Source of the DNA: Devosia ginsengisoli
GTDB taxonomy: Bacteria > Pseudomonadota > Alphaproteobacteria > Rhizobiales > Devosiaceae
Direction: 5' to 3'
DNA: 64,000 nt
NCBI RefSeq assembly: GCF_024707105.1
Contig: NZ_JANQAJ010000002.1
Coordinates: forward strand, 48,872-112,871
The position numbers and the translations under genes are program-made. The notes under the pieces are model-generated. The model saw only the letters and a list, made by a program, of their open reading frames with translations. It was not told where the DNA came from and ran no database searches. Below, one piece after another: positions 2,317 to 60,631 of the stretch (within the stretch, counting starts at the first letter, position 1; each line of letters starts with the position of its first letter).

Positions 2317-2337
2317 AAGGCTAGCTCCGTGTTACCC

Positions 2338-2370
2338 GACCTCGTGGTTCGACAAGCTCACCATGAGGTC
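2338..2370. repeat. Intergenic repeat (ggttcgacaagctcaccatg family)
   Basis: One copy of a short repeat containing tggttcgacaagctcaccat, in the gap between cobB and cobQ. Related copies occur at 7770-7835, 29296-29335 and 33513-33602. Confidence 0.75.
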
Positions 2371-3672
2371 TCACTTTCTATGCCGCATCGACGACATGGG
2401 CGTAAGAGCCCATGACGCGGTTGATGGCGGCGCCCATGGGGGGAGCGGGGTGCCGGTGGCGTCGGTGGCGGCGAAGAGGGGTGGCAGGCGGGACTGTCTG
2501 GCCGAGGAATAGTGGAATTCGTGGCCGTTGAGCTGGCCGGGCCAGGGCAAGGCGCCGGACTGGGTGAGGCGGCGATAACCGAGGATGCGCTTGGGACGGT
2601 CGATGCGGGTGGTGACGGGGAGCAGGCCAGTCATGGGGTGGCCCTGCCCTGCCTTGTCGACAAGGACCTCGCCGAGGACCATGAAGCCACCGCATTCGCC
2701 GTAGAGCAGCGCGTTGCGGTCTCGGGCGGTGGTGAGGCCGGACTTGAAGTTCGTCGCATTCGCCAGGGTGGCGGCGTGGAGTTCGGGATAGCCGCCGGGG
2801 AGGTAGATGGCATCGGCGGTGGCTGATGGGGCTTCATCGGCGAGGGGCGAGAAGAAGCTGAGCTCGGCGCCCAGGCTGCGCCAGCCGTCGAGGATATGCG
2901 GGTAGAAGAAGGCGAAGGCGTCGTCGCGGGCGATGGCGATATGCTGGCCGAGGGGTGGCAGCGGCGTGGGGGCGGTATCCGGCGGCGCGACGGGGATGGC
3001 GAGGGCGGTGAGGCGGGGGAGATCGATATAGGAGGCGACGGCTTCGGCGGCGGCATCGAGGAAGGTATCGAAAGCGGCGACTTCGGCCGGCAGGACGAGG
3101 CCGAGATGGCGCTCGGGGATGGCGAGGGCGGCGTCGCGGGGGATGGCGCCGAGGCAGGGAATGCCTGTGGCAGTGAGGGCGTCGAGCAGCATGCGCTCAT
3201 GCTTCATGGAGGCGACGCGATTGAGAATGGTGCCGGCGACGCGGACGCCGGGGCGCCAGTGGGCGAAGCCGGCCACGAGGGGGGCGACGGACTGGCTCTG
3301 GCTGGTGGCATCGACGACGAGAATGACGGGGAGTTCAAGCAGTTCGGCCAGGTCGGCGGTGGAGCCGGTATGGTCGGCGGCGCCATCGAACAGGCCCATG
3401 ACGCCTTCGACCAGCAGGAGATCGGCGCCGGTGGACTGGGTGGCGGCGAGGGATTTGAGACGGGCTGCGGACATCGACCAGGGGTCGAGATTGACCGCCT
3501 CACGCAGGGCAGCGCGGGCGAGGAAGGCGGGGTCGATATAGTCGGGGCCGGTCTTGGCGGGGGCGACGGCGAGCCCCTGCCGGCGCAGGGCGGCGAGCAG
3601 ACCGAGGGTGATGGTGGTCTTGCCCGAGCCGGAGCGCGGAGCGGATATGACGAGGCCGCTAGCCAAAGACAT
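2371..3672 (-). CDS. cobB: Cobyrinic acid a,c-diamide synthase CobB/CbiA, C-terminus frameshifted
   Basis: Amidates the a and c carboxylates of the corrin ring (hydrogenobyrinate in the aerobic route). The N-terminal ATPase domain has SAPRSGSGKTT and KTGPDYIDP; the C-terminal glutamine amidotransferase-like domain has LLYGECGGFMVLGE. As written the frame ends in an unrelated tail after GTPLPP. The expected ending MGAAINRVMGSYAHVVDAA lies in the neighbouring frame and stops at 2378. One extra base in the six-G run at 2438-2443 would restore it. Start: ATG 3672 has AGGAGG only 1 nt upstream, whereas the in-frame TTG at 3666 has the same AGGAGG at 7 nt, so TTG may be the true start. The gene overlaps the end of cobA. 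Confidence 0.92.
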   Translation of the reverse strand: MSLASGLVISAPRSGSGKTTITLGLLAALRRQGLAVAPAKTGPDYIDPAFLARAALREAVNLDPWSMSAARLKSLAATQSTGADLLLVEGVMGLFDGAADHTGSTADLAELLELPVILVVDATSQSQSVAPLVAGFAHWRPGVRVAGTILNRVASMKHERMLLDALTATGIPCLGAIPRDAALAIPERHLGLVLPAEVAAFDTFLDAAAEAVASYIDLPRLTALAIPVAPPDTAPTPLPPLGQHIAIARDDAFAFFYPHILDGWRSLGAELSFFSPLADEAPSATADAIYLPGGYPELHAATLANATNFKSGLTTARDRNALLYGECGGFMVLGEVLVDKAGQGHPMTGLLPVTTRIDRPKRILGYRRLTQSGALPWPGQLNGHEFHYSSARQSRLPPLFAATDATGTPLPPWAPPSTASWALTPMSSMRHRK

Positions 3673-7856: not shown

Positions 7857-8498
7857 TTAGAACTCGATGCCCTTCTGGGCTTTCACGCCGGCACGGAAGT
7901 GGTGCTTGATTTCGGTCATTTCGGTGACGAGGTCGGCGATGTCGATGATTTCGTCCTTGGCGTTGCGGCCGGTGACGATGACATGCTTGTCGGCGGGCTT
8001 GGCCTTGAGGAACTCGACCACCTCCTCGAGCGGGAGATAGTCGTAGCGCAGGACGATGTTGAGCTCGTCGAGCAGGACCAGCTTGTAGCTGGGGTCCGAG
8101 ATCAGCGCCTTGGCCTGGTCCCAGGCCTTGCGGGCGGCGGCGAGGTCGCGCTGGCGGTCGGCCACGTCCCAGGTGAAGCCTTCGCCCATGGCGTTGATGG
8201 TGACCAGCTCGGGGAATTTGTCGAGCACGTCGCGCTCGCCGGTTTCCCAGACGCCCTTGACGAATTGCACCACGCCGACTTTGAAGCCATGGCCGAGCGC
8301 CCGGAACACCATGCCGAAGGCGGCGGTGGATTTGCCCTTGCCCTTGCCGGTATGGACGATCAGCAGGCCCTTTTCCTGGGTCTTGGTGGCGAGAATCTTG
8401 TTCCGCGCCTCGCGCTTCTTCCGCATCTTTTCGGCGTGATAGGCGTCGCGCTCCGCCTCGGTCATCAGGTCGGTCTTCTTGGCGGGCTTGTCGGTCAT
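7857..8498 (-). CDS. cobO: Cob(I)yrinic acid a,c-diamide adenosyltransferase CobO/BtuR
   Basis: Transfers the 5'-deoxyadenosyl group of ATP to the reduced cobalt of the corrinoid. 213 residues. The P-loop GKGKGKST is at residues 51-58, preceded by a basic helix (KMRKKREARNK). RALGHGFKVGVVQFVKG, LLDELNIVLRYDYL and HVIVTGRNA are CobA/CobO/BtuR hallmarks. Its ATG overlaps the cobN stop by 4 nt (ATGA), so it is the last gene of cbtB-cbtA-cobW-cobN-cobO and is translationally coupled to cobN. Confidence 0.96.
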   Translation of the reverse strand: MTDKPAKKTDLMTEAERDAYHAEKMRKKREARNKILATKTQEKGLLIVHTGKGKGKSTAAFGMVFRALGHGFKVGVVQFVKGVWETGERDVLDKFPELVTINAMGEGFTWDVADRQRDLAAARKAWDQAKALISDPSYKLVLLDELNIVLRYDYLPLEEVVEFLKAKPADKHVIVTGRNAKDEIIDIADLVTEMTEIKHHFRAGVKAQKGIEF

Positions 8499-9911
8499 GG
8501 CGTGTCCTCAAGATAGGCGAAGGCGGAATTGGAGCGCGGCACCCAGAGACCCCGCCTGATAGCATCGTTGAATTTGGCGATCAGTTCGGCATAGCCGTGG
8601 GCATTGGCGGATTTGAGCCAGTCGCGGACGGCATCGTCCTCGACGAAGGCTTCGAAGGCCAGGTCGAAATGATGGGTCTTCACAGCGCCTGTCGTGGCGG
8701 CGAAGGCGAACATGAAATCGACGGTGGCGATGATCTCGAAGGCGCCGCGATAGCCGTGGCGCTGCATGCCGGCGATCCATTTCGGATTGACCACGCGGGA
8801 GCGCATGACATGGGAGATTTCCTCGTCCAGCGTGCGGATCAGCGGGCGTTCGGGGCGGGAATGGTCGTTGTGATAGGCGGCGAGCTTGTGGCCGGTGAGG
8901 CTCTCGGCGGCGGCGGCGAGGCCGCCTTCGAACTGGTAGTAATTGTCGCTGTCGAGCAGGTCGTGCTCGCGATTGTCCTGATTGTGGATGACAGCGTCGA
9001 TATCGCTGAGGCGCGCAGCGAAGCGGTCGCGCTCGGGGGTGCCGGCGTGCTTTGCGCCATAGGCATATTGGCCCCAATCGAGGGCGCGATTGGCGAGGTC
9101 GGCCTTGGTGGACCAGGCGCCGGAATCCAGCATGACATTGAGGCCGGCGCCATAGGTGCCGGGCTTGGAGCCGAAGATGCGGTGGCCAGCGGCGGCTTCG
9201 TCCTGGCCTGACGCGATGAGGCCAAGGGCGTCTGCGCGCATGGCGGCGGCGATGGGGTTGTCCTCGGTGGGCTCATCGAGGGCGCCGATGGCGCGGATGG
9301 CACGGTCGAACAGGGCGATCTGGGCCGGGAAGGCGTCGCGGAAGAAACCGGATATGCGCAGGGTGACGTCGACGCGGGGGCGGCCGAGTTTTGCCAGCGG
9401 AATGATCTCATAGCCGGAGACGCGGAGGGAGCCCGGGTCCCAGGTGGGGCGGGCGCCGATCAGGGCCAGGGCCTGGGCGATGTCGTCGCCGCCGGTGCGC
9501 ATATTGGCCGTGCCCCAGACGGAGAGGGCGACCGAACGAAGATGATGGCCATGATCCTGCAGGTGGCGGAGGACGAGGCTTTCGGCGGACTTCTTGCCGA
9601 GCTCCCAGGCCGATGGCGTGGGCACGGCGCGGTTGTCGATGGAGTAGAAATTGCGGCCGGTGGGGAGCACGTCGAGGCGTCCGCGCGAGGGGGCGCCGGA
9701 GGGGCCGGGAGCGATGAACCTGCCATCGAGGCCGGCGAGGAGGGCCGAGATTTCGGCGGGTCCGGAGGCGGCGAGGCGGGGGCGGATGATGGACTGCACC
9801 GTTTCCAGCACAGCCGCGGTGGCGGTCCAGTCGGGGGGAGTTCGAGGGTGCCGTCGACGAGGGCGGCGGCGAGATTTTCCAAGTACTCAACCACGTCGCC
9901 CAGAGTGCGTG

Positions 9912-9955
9912 GCCCCACCCCACCCTTGATCCCTCCCCATCGAGGGGAGGGAGAC
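9912..9955. repeat. Repeat copy inside cobN, read in frame
   Basis: A copy of the ccctccccacaagggg-type family (here atccctccccatcgagggga) lies inside cobN and is translated as SSPSPRWGGIKGGVG between LGTPWSGP and TLGDVVEYLENLAAALV, both CobN-like. It keeps the reading frame. Confidence 0.8.
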
Positions 9956-11069
9956 GACTGATGGTTCGGCGGGACTGTGGGGGTTGGGCCGCTCCACGGC
10001 GTCCCGAGCTTTGCGGTCAGCGGATCGAAGACCAGCTTGAGGTCATCGGCCAGGGCGCGGATGAGGGAATTGTCCCCTGCCCCGTCGCCGCGCGGGACGC
10101 GGGCCAGGGCGACGGTGAGGTCGCGTTCGAGGGTGCCTGTTGGCGATTGGCCGAAGATGTGGAGGCCGCCGCGGATCTGGGCTTCCTTGAGGTCGCAGAG
10201 GAAGTTGTCGATCTTGATCAGGGCCTGGGTTTCGTCCTCGGGCAGACCGATATCGCGGTCCAGCCTGGTGTCGCTGACGAAATCGAGGATGCGGCGCTTG
10301 AGGTCGGTGAGGCGGCGGCGGTCCATGCCGGAGGCGGCATAGTATTCGTCGAGCAGGGCTTCGAGTTCCCTGAGGGGGCCATAGGTTTCGGCGCGGGTGA
10401 GCGGCGGCACGAGATGGTCGATGATGACCGCGCCCGTACGGCGCTTGGCCTGTGTGCCCTCACCGGGGTCGTTGACGATGAAGGGATAGAGATGCGGGAG
10501 TTGGCCCCAGAGGGCGTCGGGATAGCTGGCCTCGTCCAGCGCCGTGGCCTTGCCGGGGAGCCATTCGAGCGTGCCATGCTTGCCGTTGTGCATCAGGGCA
10601 TGAGCACCAAAATCGTGGCGCAACCAGAGATAGGCGGCGAGATAGGCGTGGGGCGGGACGAGGGCCGGATCGTGATAGGACGCGGTCTCGTCGAGCTGAT
10701 AGCCGCGGGCGGGCTGGAGCAGGATGGCGATATTGCCGAAGACGAGCGCGGGGAGGTGGAACACCTGATTTGTAATCAGGGGGTCTGGGCCTGCCTCTGT
10801 ACGCACGAATGGATCGGTGGCTGGATCGCCCCAGCGGGCGGTGACTTCGGTGCGGATTTTTTCGGGCAGGGTGGCGAAGAGTTCGCGATAACGGGCGAGC
10901 GGAAGCGTGGCGGGGGATGAGCCGCGCTGGGGATTGGCGTTGGTGGGGCCGGATTGGAGGGCGTGGATCAGTTCGACCGAGGTCATTGGGAATGCGGCTC
11001 GCTCGACACCCCTACCCTCAATTCCTCCCCTCAAGGGGGAGGGAGGCGAAGGGAGCGCGATCGCCGGTT

Positions 11070-11110
11070 CCCCTCCCCCTTGAGGGGAGGGGTTAGGGGT
11101 GGGGGTGTCG
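11070..11110. repeat. 41-bp inverted repeat flanking the DUF559 domain, copy 1
   Basis: Reverse complement identical over 41 bases to 11508-11548. Core sequence ccctcccccttgaggggagg. It lies between the DUF559 domain and a further related copy at about 11008-11048. Confidence 0.92.
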
Positions 11111-11507
11111 GAGCCATTCAAGTGCGCTGAGATTACGGTCCATACGCCATCAGGATTGTGCATGGCTTCGTGATTGCCAATGCGCAAAACACGATAACCT
11201 GCTGACATGAGAAACCGATCGCGCGCAGCGTCATGCCGCTGAGCCGCAGGCGTTCCATGTGTATCGCCGTCCAGTTCGATGACCAGCTTAGCGCTATGGG
11301 AGGCAAAATCCGCGAAATACCGGTCGATCGGCACCTGACGGCGAAAGTGGTGCTGGGCAAACGATTCCCGCAGCATCGCCCAAAGCACGCGCTCTGGTTG
11401 GGGAGGATTCGAACGAAACGTTCGTGCTCGCTCAATATTTTTCGCGGGACGTGAGAAGCGGGTGTTGTCGTGGCCGATGCCCCAGTTTTTCTGGGCACCG
11501 GAGAGTT

Positions 11508-11548
11508 CGACACCCCCACCCCTAACCCCTCCCCTCAAGGGGGAGGGG
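11508..11548. repeat. 41-bp inverted repeat flanking the DUF559 domain, copy 2
   Basis: Perfect inverted match of 11070-11110, enclosing 397 bp with the DUF559 domain. It begins cgacacccccacccctaacc and belongs to the family found between genes at 4623 and 57111. The 12-mer ggctcagcgtgt follows it, as also at 4671. Confidence 0.92.
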
Positions 11549-12238
11549 GATTGGCTCAGCGTGTAGCCCGCCTTTTCCAGTTCCTGCAGCATCCGTATCG
11601 TGGATTCCGGGGCGTCGTAGCCGACGCCGTTGGCGAGGCGGCCGTCGCGGATGGGGTAGTTGGCCAGGACGATGGCGAGTTTGCGGTCGGCGCGGGAGGT
11701 GGTGCGGAGGCGGGACCAGTTTCTGGCCAACGCCACGGCGCGGGTTATGCCCGAATGGTCGGGGGTGTAGGCGGTGAGGGGGACCTGGCAGGCTTCGTGC
11801 CAGACGGCGTCGGCCTTGTGGCCGACGATGAGGCCGCCGAGGCGCCCGTCGACTTCGGGCATGACGAGGAACATCGCCATGTCCTTGGGGGACAGGCCCT
11901 GGCTGTCGGCCAGCCATTGGGTTTCGGAGCGGCCGGACTGGATGAGCTGGATGACGGGAGCGTCACTGGTCGCGAAGGGATTGGCCTTAGCGTCGATTCT
12001 GTCGAGGCCGAGGGCGAAGCCGGTGAGGTTGAAGATGGCTGATGGCGGAAAGGCAGCGAGCGCGTTCTGCACGAAGCGGGCGCAGGGGGCTTCCTTGAGG
12101 GAGGAGACGAGGAGCGGGACCGGGGGCGAGACCCTGCGCTTCGAGTTCGGTTATGAGGGCGGCGATGGTGGCGGTGCCGGCGCCTTCGAGGGCGGCGCGG
12201 TAGAAGAGGATGGGGATGTAGGGCGGAGTCTTTGTGGG

Positions 12239-12290
12239 GTACCCCCCTCCTAGCCTCCCCCTGACAGGCGGAGGAATCCGGCTGGTGCGT
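12239..12290. repeat. Repeat copy inside cobN that coincides with a frame break
   Basis: A forward copy of the tcctagcctccccctgacag family inside cobN. CobN-like sequence is in one frame before it (HAAMPPTH) and another after it (KTPPYIPILFYRAALEG). Removing one base of its C-run at 12243-12248 would join the frames. Confidence 0.8.
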
Positions 12291-12399
12291 GGGCGGCATC
12301 GCGGCGTGGAGCGCGCGCAGGCCGGGTTCGTCGGTCATCCCGGTGGCTGGGTGCCAGAGGCCGAAGCGGGCGAAGGGGGTTGGCACAGGCGAAGACAAG

Positions 12400-12540
12400 A
12401 CCCCCTCATCCGCCCTTCGGGCACCTTCTCCCACGAGGGGAGAAGGGGAGCCGGTGGGTGGGCTGGATTCCGCCAAAGATACCGGATCACCCTTCTCCCC
12501 TCGTGGGAGAAGGTGGCCCGAAGGGCCGGATGAGGGGGTT
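12400..12540. repeat. Inverted pair of RIME-like repeats inside cobN, in frame
   Basis: A forward copy (12400-12449, cccctcatccgcccttcggg) and a reverse copy (12491-12538) lie head to head and are translated as part of CobN, with [12 protein letters not shown] and [16 protein letters not shown] as the repeat-encoded residues. They resemble the Rhizobium intergenic mosaic element palindromes known from Hyphomicrobiales. Confidence 0.82.
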
Positions 12541-13019
12541 GCGAGCGCGTGAAACGCCTCCAGGATCGTGTCGGCGTTGTCGGGGCCGCCTGCGGTGAAG
12601 AGGCTGTGGAGTCTCGTCCAGTCATCGGGGTGGATGGTGGAGCGGGATTGCAGGATCGGGTCGGGATTGGCGTCGCCGGGGAGCAGGACGAGCGGGATTT
12701 TGCGGTTGGCGCAGAGGGCGGTGAGTTCGTCGACGCCGTATTGGAAATAGGCGGCGCCGCCGATGAGGCGCAGGGTGACGAGGCGTGCATGCGCCACCGT
12801 CTTTTCCAGCCAGAGATCGACCGAGAGATTGTTGGAGAGGCGCAGTGTATTGGCGAGGCGGAGTTCATCCTCCCCTGCCCGGTCGGCGGCGCCGGCCAGC
12901 ATGGCCAGTTCGCTATCGGCCGAACTGGCAAAGACCAGCGCCCCGGGGCGCTGGTTGAGATCGATGGCTTCGCCTTCCTGCTGGATGGCGCCGGCCTGGG
13001 CGGAGAGGAGGTGCATGTG

Positions 13020-29172: not shown

Positions 29173-29295
29173 CGCGATATTCCGATGCAAACAGGATGGG
29201 CGTTCTATGTGGCAGCTTGGGGTGCGGATCAAGGGGAAACGGACATGTGCATTGGTATCATACGCACCTGGCGGAGGCGCTGGAAACGCCAGTGC

Positions 29296-29335
29296 CACGC
29301 CCTCGTGGTTCGACAGGCTCACCATGAGGGCTGCC
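29296..29335. repeat. Intergenic repeat upstream of the HAD gene
   Basis: A copy of the ctcgtggttcgacaggctca family between the HAD gene and the EAL-domain gene. Confidence 0.7.
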
Positions 29336-33512: not shown

Positions 33513-33602
33513 CCTCATGGTGAGCTTGTCGAACCATGGGATCGAGCGAGTGGAGCTACTGTGCCACGCCCTCGTGGTTCGACGAGCTCACCATGAGGGC
33601 TA
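33513..33602. repeat. Repeat pair (gtgagcttgtcgaaccatgg family)
   Basis: Two oppositely oriented units (about 33515-33540 and 33567-33602) between the convergent sigma-54 activator and EamA transporter genes. Confidence 0.75.
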
Positions 33603-58210: not shown

Positions 58211-59046
58211 AGCGCCTGCTCAGCCATCCCAGCCTGGTCATCGGGCTCAGCGCTACGCTGGTCTTCCTCGTGGTCGGCATCGTATCGCTGATCTGGACGC
58301 CCTACCCCATCGAACAGATCGACATACCGCGCCGGTTCCTGGCACCGAGCGCGGCCCACTGGCTAGGCACCGACAATCTGGGGCGGGACATGATGAGCCT
58401 CGTCATGGCCGGCACCTGGACGAGTTTCCTCGTGGCGGCGGTTGCGGTGGCCATCGGTGTCGGCGTCGGCGTGCCGCTGGGGCTGGCCGCGGCGGCGTGG
58501 GGCGGGCCGGTGGAGTGGCTGGTGCTGCGGCTCACCGATTTCGTCTTCGCCTTCCCGGCTGTCATCGTCGCCATTCTCATCACGACCTTGCTCGGTCCAA
58601 GCGCAATCAACGCGATCGTGGCCATCGGCGTCTTCAACATTCCGGTATTTGCCCGGGTGGCGCGGGGCGGGGCACTCGGCGTCGCGACGCTCGATTTCGT
58701 GGCGGCGGGGCGGCTGGCTGGGCTGGGCAATGCGCTGATCGCCTGGCGGCACCTGCTGCCCAATATCATGAGCCTCATCATCGTGCAGGGCACCATCCAG
58801 ATGTCGCTGGGCATCCTGGCCGAAGCGGGCCTGTCCTATATCGGACTGGGCACGCAGCCGCCGGAAACCAGCCTGGGGCTGATGCTGCGCGACGCACAGG
58901 GCGTGTTCCTGATCCATCCCTGGCTGACGCTGGTGCCGGGAATTTCCATCGTGCTCATCGTCATTGCGCTCAACATTGCCGGCGACGGGCTGCGCGACGC
59001 CATCGATCCACGGCTGCGGCAGGGAAATCCCAATGTCCTTGCTTGA
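58207..59046 (+). CDS. Peptide-type ABC transporter permease (DppC-like)
   Basis: 279 residues starting at a GTG (58207) that overlaps the preceding stop by 4 nt. HWLGTDNLGRDMMSLVMAGT is the DppC signature, the EAA loop is FVAAGRLAGLGNALIAWRHL, and the C-terminus GDGLRDAIDPRLR is typical. Six helices. It overlaps the ATPase gene by 14 nt. Confidence 0.95.
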   Translation: MKRLLSHPSLVIGLSATLVFLVVGIVSLIWTPYPIEQIDIPRRFLAPSAAHWLGTDNLGRDMMSLVMAGTWTSFLVAAVAVAIGVGVGVPLGLAAAAWGGPVEWLVLRLTDFVFAFPAVIVAILITTLLGPSAINAIVAIGVFNIPVFARVARGGALGVATLDFVAAGRLAGLGNALIAWRHLLPNIMSLIIVQGTIQMSLGILAEAGLSYIGLGTQPPETSLGLMLRDAQGVFLIHPWLTLVPGISIVLIVIALNIAGDGLRDAIDPRLRQGNPNVLA

Positions 59047-60631
59047 GGTTTCCGGCCTTTCCGTGCGCTTCGGAGACACCGAAGTGGTCAGTGATGTGAG
59101 CTTCTCGCTGCAGCGCGGCGAGCGCTTCGGTATTATCGGGGAAAGCGGCTCGGGCAAGACGCTGACCGCGCTGGCCGTCACCGGGCTGCTGCCGGAAGGC
59201 GCTGTCATGACAGGCAGCATCAGCCTCGATGGCGCGCCCCTGCCCCAGCAGGAACGCGCCATGGCGCGGCTGCGCGGCAAGCGGGTCGGCATGGTGTTCC
59301 AGGAGCCGATGACAGCACTCAATCCCTTGATGCGGGTCAACGACCAGATCGAAGAGAGCATCCGCCTCAACGAAACGCATGGCGCGACGCAGATCGAGGT
59401 GCCCTACCTGCTCAAGGAAGTGGGGCTGGAACTCAAGCATGGCGACCGCTTTCCGCACCAGCTTTCGGGTGGGCAGCGCCAGCGCGTGATGATCGCCATG
59501 GCGCTGGCCAGCCGGCCGGACATCTTGATCGCGGACGAGCCGACCTCGGCGCTCGACCTCATCACCCAGCGCAAGGTGCTCGACCTGATCGCCGATATCT
59601 GCGCGCGGCGGCAGATGGCTTTGCTGTTCATCAGCCACGACCTCAAGGCGGTGGGGGCTTTGTGCAACCGGGTCGCCGTGATGCATCGCGGCCGGCTGGT
59701 GGAAACCGGCAGGGCGGCGACCACGTTCTCGGCGCCCCAGCAGGCCTATACGCAGAAACTGGTGGCCGCCTCGCGCTTCGATGTGCGGCCGCTGTCGCGT
59801 CCACCGATCGGCAATACGCTGCTGGAGGTGAATGGCGTGACGCGGGACTACCGGCAGGGCGGAATGCTGTTCTGGGCCGACAAGCCGCTGCGGGCAGTGA
59901 ACGAGGTCAGCTTTTCCATCGCCAGCGCCGAATGCCTGGCGCTGGTCGGCCCGTCGGGCTGCGGCAAGACCACCCTGGCCAAGATCATCGTCGGGCTGGA
60001 CAAGGCCACTTCCGGTACTGTGCGACTGGCGGGCACGGAATATCGCGGCTCCGACCTGCCCAAGGCGCTGCGGCGCGATGTCTCGCTAGTGTTCCAGGAC
60101 CCGTTCGGCAGCTTCAATCCGCGGCTGAGCATCGCCGATTCCGTGGCGGAACCGCTGCGGCTGGAGCCAGGCCTGAGCCAGGAGACGATACAGGCGCGGC
60201 TGGTGGAGGCGGTTGAGGCCGTGGGGCTCGATGCCGGCATGCTGACGCGCTACCCGCATGAATTTTCCGGCGGGCAGCGGCAGCGGCTGGCCATTGCCCG
60301 GGCGCTGGTGACGCGGCCCAAGCTGGTAGTGCTGGACGAGCCGGTTTCGGCGCTGGACGTTTCGGTGCGCGGCGAGGTGCTGGCCTTGCTGGCGCGGCTG
60401 CAGGCCGATTTCGGGCTGACCTACCTGATCATCAGCCACGATCTCGACATGGTGCGGGCCATGGCCGACCGCGTGCTGGTGATGGATGCCGGCCGGATTG
60501 TCGAAGAGGGCAAGCCGGAGCAGATCTTTGCCGAACCGCAGCACCGGCTGACGCGAGATCTGATGGCGGCAAGACTGCCGGATGTGGGCATCGTTGCTTC
60601 AACCACCCCGGATCGTCACCCTCGGGCTTGA
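59033..60631 (+). CDS. Fused dual ATP-binding protein of a peptide-type ABC transporter (DppD-DppF)
   Basis: Two complete ABC cassettes in 532 residues. First: Walker A GESGSGKT, signature LSGGQRQRVMIAMAL, Walker B ILIADEPTSALD. Second: GPSGCGKTT, FSGGQRQRLAIARAL, LVVLDEPVSALD. Such fusions are common in alphaproteobacterial peptide/opine importers. The last nine or so residues (TTPDRHPRA) come from a repeat copy starting near 60607, so the original C-terminus has been replaced or extended. Start ATG 59033. Confidence 0.95.
   Translation: MSLLEVSGLSVRFGDTEVVSDVSFSLQRGERFGIIGESGSGKTLTALAVTGLLPEGAVMTGSISLDGAPLPQQERAMARLRGKRVGMVFQEPMTALNPLMRVNDQIEESIRLNETHGATQIEVPYLLKEVGLELKHGDRFPHQLSGGQRQRVMIAMALASRPDILIADEPTSALDLITQRKVLDLIADICARRQMALLFISHDLKAVGALCNRVAVMHRGRLVETGRAATTFSAPQQAYTQKLVAASRFDVRPLSRPPIGNTLLEVNGVTRDYRQGGMLFWADKPLRAVNEVSFSIASAECLALVGPSGCGKTTLAKIIVGLDKATSGTVRLAGTEYRGSDLPKALRRDVSLVFQDPFGSFNPRLSIADSVAEPLRLEPGLSQETIQARLVEAVEAVGLDAGMLTRYPHEFSGGQRQRLAIARALVTRPKLVVLDEPVSALDVSVRGEVLALLARLQADFGLTYLIISHDLDMVRAMADRVLVMDAGRIVEEGKPEQIFAEPQHRLTRDLMAARLPDVGIVASTTPDRHPRA

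Follow-up and report, generated by a model that had tools for sequence, protein, structure and literature searches.

A DUF559 nuclease between inverted REP-like palindromes, in frame within CobN of Devosia: a candidate selfish element

The DUF559 insert in cobN

In a 64,000-nucleotide stretch of the Devosia ginsengisoli genome (contig NZ_JANQAJ010000002.1, positions 48,872 to 112,871; this whole stretch is called the window), the gene cobN carries a DUF559 nuclease domain that is read in frame with CobN and lies between two inverted copies of a repeat resembling repetitive extragenic palindromic (REP) sequences. The parts of this arrangement, in window coordinates, are:

9463..12072, minus strand: middle piece of cobN, carrying the insert (PF02514, E 7.7e-148, in two stretches)
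11119..11436, minus strand: DUF559 domain (Vsr/EDxHD-fold nuclease), in frame with CobN (PF04480, E 1.7e-27)
11070..11110: inverted REP-like arm, downstream of the domain in the nuclease sense, pairing perfectly with 11508-11548
11508..11548: inverted REP-like arm, upstream of the domain in the nuclease sense
11004..11043: third REP-like repeat, facing 11071-11110 (88% complementary, 27 nt apart), which makes a REP doublet on that side

A Pfam scan of the 870-residue open frame found CobN sequence on either side of DUF559 (58853-59860 and 60416-60994 in contig coordinates), and the domain itself scored 95.9 bits against a curated cut-off of 20.6, was matched again at genome level (E 1.7e-28 at G000:C10:59990-60307) and gave a predicted structure with a mean confidence (pLDDT) of 89.8. 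The predicted domain belongs to the Vsr fold and is related to the EDxHD nuclease I-Bth0305I (3r3p) by fold likeness and a weak sequence relation; the fold search also matched mitochondrial ribosome proteins. Five residues, D43, E54, D56, H60 and D69, are invariant in an 18-sequence DUF559 alignment. The two arms form a perfect 41-bp inverted pair (local score 41.0), extend to 48 nt at 94% match (11063-11110/11508-11555), and consist of a palindrome that is GC-rich and carries a G-rich tail. Between the CobN anchors, GYTLS and TSVELI, the window holds 642 nt, compared to 81-105 nt in 14 relatives, or about 186 extra codons. A reading of the window from sequence alone (the sequence-only reading) had described these extra codons, the domain and its perfect repeats, and had assigned the repeats to a dispersed family; all four descriptions held, the last because the related subfamily S1, whose pattern was taken from another DUF559 locus of this genome, occurs here in 88 copies (up to three mismatches; 127 in the relative G010), compared to none for the reversed control pattern.

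The rest of cobN is less regular, and its remaining pieces and repeats are as follows:

8498..9811, minus strand: C-terminal piece of cobN, in a different frame (PF02514, E 6.2e-176)
12060..13016, minus strand: N-terminal part of cobN, in two further frames (DNA alignment with relatives; no Pfam match of its own)
9916..9971: REP-like repeat within cobN (family D1)
12239..12287: REP-like repeat of another subfamily within cobN (family D4; present in G010, absent from G008)
12396..12536: further palindromic repeat pair within cobN (families D6 and D7; one of the two absent from G010 and G008)

The frame is continuous across the insert, as the sequence-only reading had it, but over the whole gene that claim fails, because cobN changes frame three times, near 12240, 12060 and 9815. 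At each change the length differs from that in the closest relatives, G010 and G008, by one base, within or next to a G/C run, which may reflect decay or read error; cobN is single-copy, with no second cobN found in the genome. Besides the DUF559 unit, then, cobN holds extra palindromic insertions, some of them missing in one or both of these relatives. A second repeat family (..CTCGTGGTTCGACAAGCTCACCATGAGG..) occurs at window positions 2331-2371, 29292-29332 and 33561-33601.

The CobN site across Devosia

We surveyed the insertion site in 36 CobN loci (31 of the same genus, four named ones and the window, with D. ureilytica counted once), in 35 of which both anchors were present and could be used for counting. 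The survey revealed three states of one site: empty or nearly so in 14 loci (81-105 nt between anchors), occupied by a lone repeat in 14 (129-177 nt; several REP subfamilies), and filled by DUF559 in seven (537-786 nt). In two of the lone-repeat loci, G012 and G028, the site carries another repeat, by eye like family D9, the window's second repeat family, which is not a GC-rich REP. The frame is kept across the site in 34 of the 35 loci, the exception being G010. The carriers of DUF559 are the window and six other Devosia loci, five of the six having CobN and DUF559 in a single frame of 1477-1607 residues, measured stop to stop (G024, 1607; D. elaeis, 1526; Devosia sp. FKR38, 1503; D. limi, 1492; D. 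ureilytica, 1477), and the sixth, a metagenome-assembled Devosia genome, a frame of at least 1294 residues that runs to a contig end. The earlier suggestion that the insertion leaves its host gene alive fits the single long frames of other species. Several kinds of repeat occur at GYTLS/TSVELI, where CobN seems to have a tolerant loop.

Long DUF559 proteins (0.55-1.75 times the length) were sought among 5.8 billion proteins, and 26 of the 29 found were CobN. By pattern, 21 of these 26 have the domain after the GYDA..AGY stretch, as do three more by eye; the other two begin inside the domain. Every CobN-DUF559 case bearing an organism name is Devosia, and no CobN of a distant genus carrying the domain without repeats was seen among them.

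In a tree of 103 DUF559 domains all seven CobN inserts group in a single clade (support 98/92), and a second tree that included 13 of the 26 CobN-lodged domains again placed all of them in one clade; independent insertions at the CobN site are therefore unsupported. On a 34-row CobN tree, presence of the insert requires six changes and is unclustered (173 of 500 shuffles gave as few), and, as a measure of strict vertical descent with CobN, the distances of insert and CobN correlate weakly (r 0.36, p 0.08). The unit either homes into CobN alleles or was lost often, leaving lone repeats behind. In all 21 pairs of inserts the nonsynonymous proportion (pN, 0.20-0.34) lies below the synonymous one (pS, 0.63-0.87, with many dS values saturated), which shows the CobN-lodged DUF559 to be under purifying selection. 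The pS of the insert exceeds that of CobN itself in most species pairs.

Palindrome-bracketed DUF559 at other loci, and DUF559 in other proteins

DUF559 is present in 41 of 61 genomes comprising the window's own and others of the same genus and order. We compared the two 150-nt flanks of each of 101 fetched copies with enough flanking sequence, taken from the domain edges for DUF559 and from the gene edges for controls, and scored an inverted match of at least 20 as positive. Such inverted flanks accompany 64 of the 101 copies, compared to seven of 489 called genes of the same stretches (Fisher p 9e-51) and one of 196 short control genes; when flanks were swapped between loci 8.4% passed, so the two flanks of a copy match each other rather than those of other loci. 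Chance or ordinary flanks are ruled out by the control genes and the swapped flanks. When syntenic copies were grouped, REP-flanked copies made up the majority in 23 of 34 groups and were lacking in seven. One ten-copy clade, nine of whose members are syntenic, has no inverted flanks (0/10, compared to 63/84 for the rest) and is an internal negative control. The arrangement of a nuclease between two palindromes whose tails point inward is the commonest DUF559 setting among the genus copies examined.

Inverted flanks also occur beyond this set, at 16 of 30 DUF559 loci across the class and at 61 of 78 named loci chosen because they resemble the CobN-lodged group (Devosia, Sphingomonas, Sphingobium, Sphingopyxis, Rhodopseudomonas, Methylocystis and others); a draw across the phylum gave 6/16 in other classes, 3/3 in the class and 2/9 in the order. 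A unit limited to this genome is ruled out by these flanked loci in genus, order, class and phylum. In several species of the genus one locus holds two different DUF559 units about 1.8-1.9 kb apart (L110, L112, L113 and L114), and one synteny group contains 26 DUF559 copies from different clades.

Nuclease and palindrome also vary together. Across 61 flanked copies the distances between nucleases correlate with those between upstream palindromes (rho 0.43 overall and 0.39 when the comparison is confined to non-syntenic pairs), values that none of 2000 permutations reached, and the palindrome tail points inward in 50, outward in none and ambiguously in 11. The nine genomes carrying the nuclease clade that matches S1 hold 12-127 S1 copies (median 37), compared to 0-40 (median 7) in 28 non-carriers (p 4e-4), with no link between S1 and an unrelated nuclease clade (p 0.86), and the eight genomes devoid of DUF559 have fewer S1 plus S5 copies taken together (p 0.0035). 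In G010, the only genome in which they were counted, 51 S5 copies include 10 inverted doublets at 81-83 nt, where 0.09 are expected. The Y1 transposase of REP-associated tyrosine transposases (RAYTs), PF01797, was found in none of 37 Devosia-genus genomes at E 0.001 (one of them 62% complete), compared to five of 14 control genomes. No GTAG tag is visible in the S1, S3 and S5 patterns, for which no systematic test was made, and a rough CGTC motif gave four matches in the loci scanned, whose flanks read CCTCCCC- or CTCTCCC-type.

In nine kinds of protein other than CobN, Pfam scans further placed DUF559 amid host domains, so that host sequence precedes and follows it:

RecG: two DUF559 copies
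error-prone DNA polymerase (DnaE2) of Microbaculum: DUF559 inside
isoleucyl-tRNA synthetase (IleRS)-like protein: DUF559 inside, with a GNAT domain too
PriA of Micavibrio: DUF559 inside
YgiQ: DUF559 inside
UvrB: DUF559 inside
RecJ: DUF559 inside
asparagine synthase (AsnB), on a 2.56-Mb contig: DUF559 inside its amidotransferase domain
HsdR (locus L315): DUF559 inside

Precomputed domain lists add LeuRS, Mfd, HrpA and MnmG, and in 94 of 99 host-labelled proteins the domain lies more than 100 residues from both ends. The metagenomic hosts are known from protein only; palindromes were seen in DNA for CobN, for asparagine synthase (inverted score 30.5, with a direct score of 37.0 in the same stretch) and, with a score of 13.0 that falls short of the threshold of 20, weakly for HsdR. 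The domains cluster by host (19 changes, compared to a shuffled mean of 52, over 85 rows), and IleRS and PriA, in which the positions differ, seem to need several DUF559 entries. Eight loci (L108, L172, L176, L177, L184, L317, L321 and L327) have long stop-to-stop frames without a recognised host domain and were not counted as hosts.

Three IleRS-like proteins (P0029, P0162 and P0176) list a GNAT acetyltransferase domain along with DUF559, and other cargo such as GNAT may travel in the same manner. At L107:5697-8750 (G045), DUF559 stands in frame ahead of the phenylalanyl-tRNA synthetase beta chain, without detectable inverted REPs, and at L326 it forms the C-terminus of HsdM, which together with HsdR makes type I restriction genes hosts.

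A proposed selfish nuclease-palindrome unit, its rivals and known systems

On balance we favour the explanation that DUF559 and the inverted REPs in frame in CobN are one selfish element, which would spread by cutting or nicking its own palindromes and be retained unspliced in a host protein that probably still works. That nuclease and repeats might form a mobile unit was already proposed in the sequence-only reading, and the proposal is strengthened by the flanks compared to controls, the co-divergence, the empty, lone-repeat and nuclease-filled states of the CobN site, the single long CobN frames of other species and the other hosts; movement and cutting by the unit are what we infer from these sequence comparisons. 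The nuclease would be active, expressed alone or as part of its host protein, would recognise the hairpin or tail of its own REP and would cut or nick there, whereupon repair could copy the whole unit or a bare REP into REP-like sites. An insertion would survive where the repeat-coded peptide and the compact domain fit a tolerant surface loop; because REPs of this kind can be read through in some frames, giving Pro/Gly-rich linkers, such an insertion should be survivable. At CobN, the unit would be renewed by homing-type conversion or would have been lost many times, giving lone repeats.

Several observations weigh against this explanation. Direct flank matches are also common (36/101, compared to 7/489 controls), because several REPs often lie side by side, and 21 of the 84 copies outside the REP-free clade have no detectable inverted flanks. 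A neighbour gene is shared with another copy for 72 of 95 DUF559 copies, which argues for infrequent jumping. Some genomes free of DUF559 hold REPs, such as G027 with 39 S1 copies, and when only phylogenetically independent pairs from the CobN tree are counted, S1 stands at about 3:0 with two ties, which is not significant because the pairs are too few. S5 is not specific to its own nuclease clade (p 0.08 for its own, 0.06 for the other), and the rare S3, with 23 matches spread over 10 of 61 genomes, fails to track its clade beyond the flanks themselves; as proof of mobilisation REP copy number is mixed, S1 speaking for it and S5 and S3 not. Dispersed S5 doublets have their tails outward, whereas those of the nuclease units point inward. 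Repeat-coded peptides (SPLxGEGxGEG, PSPQGGG and others) stand on the left in 66 and on the right in 65 of 99 host-labelled proteins, most weakly right of IleRS (5/24), by a loose pattern with no control. In the window, the host gene, with its three frame changes, may be dead.

The best surviving rival, which we nevertheless consider unlikely, is that REPs spread by another activity and that DUF559 is passive cargo, caught between two REPs by recombination or composite movement. REPs in genomes without DUF559, the different lone repeats at the one CobN site and the copy numbers of S3 and S5 would all fit such cargo, but other genes are so bracketed in only seven of 489 cases, nuclease and palindrome co-diverge even between non-syntenic loci, and the Y1 transposase was not found in the genus. 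Less probable still is the view that DUF559 serves the cell in repair or defence, with the palindromes acting only as terminators, mRNA stabilisers or expression signals. A terminator is unexpected on both sides of a domain within the frames of CobN, PriA, RecG and UvrB, and presence at CobN is patchy, despite the purifying selection on the CobN-lodged domain, the largely syntenic REP-free clade, the occurrence of DUF559 in HsdM and HsdR, and the functional tie of Caulobacter VsrA to a solitary cytosine methyltransferase noted in PMC12907096. As for defence, PADLOC gave no convincing family match for three proteins (the best, at E 1.9e-5, covering a short stretch of DpdF), so that a defence-system identity gained no support there. 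That the insert in this genome is a relic or artefact, in a cobN that is a pseudogene or has read errors at G/C runs, is very improbable in spite of the three single-base changes in its only cobN, since the insert is contiguous and in frame, keeps its conserved acidic and histidine residues and turns up at this site in other, independent assemblies, a recurrence that rules out an assembly artefact of the insert itself.

A wider proposal, which we hold more tentatively than the selfish-element explanation for CobN and would put somewhat short of even, is that DUF559 nucleases supply the mobilising enzyme so far missing for a large class of bacterial REPs, as an element unrelated to RAYTs and inteins that sits between genes and, unspliced, in CobN, IleRS, PriA, RecG, UvrB and AsnB, and that may explain the palindromes left by Rickettsia-type in-frame elements. 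The literature has yet to explain the spread of alphaproteobacterial REPs: PMC3733652 describes REPs of the CGTC class, including some Rickettsia palindromic elements, as prevalent in Alphaproteobacteria and apparently without a dedicated transposase. A nuclease bracketing itself with matching palindromes is a concrete candidate mobiliser for the GC-rich REPs found here. If so, a selfish gene could live in a protein without splicing, by using sites that tolerate a repeat-coded linker, and proteins would have a route to gain new domains. Among the papers listed by a literature search, mostly outside subscription, none links DUF559 with REPs, so that a report may exist elsewhere.

Among known systems, REP/RAYT pairs (REPtrons) share with the unit short palindromes, from a genome-dispersed subfamily, on both sides of a nuclease gene, several distinct pairs per genome, and REP doublets of fixed spacing, here counted for S5 in one genome; fixed-length doublets are given as a mark of REPINs in PMC3116915. 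The enzyme differs, being a PD-(D/E)XK/Vsr-fold DUF559 rather than an HUH tyrosine transposase, no Y1 HUH transposase was found in the 37 genomes of the genus, and the unit lies in frame inside proteins. With regard to IS elements and MITEs, Pfam scans found no transposase domain in the CobN inserts. Rickettsia palindromic elements are palindromic repeats that occur in frame within genes of unrelated kinds. Insertions of that sort were found here too, but these palindromes bracket a whole nuclease domain and are GC-rich (CCTCCCC...GGGGAGG), apparently not of the CGTC class; that some REPs lie inside genes is mentioned in PMC3733652.

Vsr and VsrA mismatch endonucleases (1cw0; PMC12907096) differ in that DUF559 here has REP flanks and lies inside other proteins. 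Inteins with homing endonucleases likewise place a nuclease in frame at a fixed site of housekeeping proteins, and a DUF559/EDxHD gene is named in the section on inteins of PMC9403480. Unlike an intein, the insert is predicted to remain part of the host protein, and a Pfam scan of six proteins (three CobN inserts and three other hosts; E up to 0.001) found no Hint/intein domain, only DUF559/MTES_1575 besides the host domains and GNAT in the IleRS-like case. The EDxHD homing endonuclease I-Bth0305I (PMC3943268) shares the fold, a fixed site in a conserved protein and a patchy distribution across species, with one clade at the CobN site; here, in contrast, REP flanks replace the intron or intein, neither of which was found, and cutting of the empty allele is only putative, so that patchy presence at one CobN site is only suggestive of homing. 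Overall, the REP-nuclease unit resembles REP/RAYT in its anatomy and a homing endonuclease in its putative logic, with a nuclease of the Vsr/homing type that would settle inside proteins.
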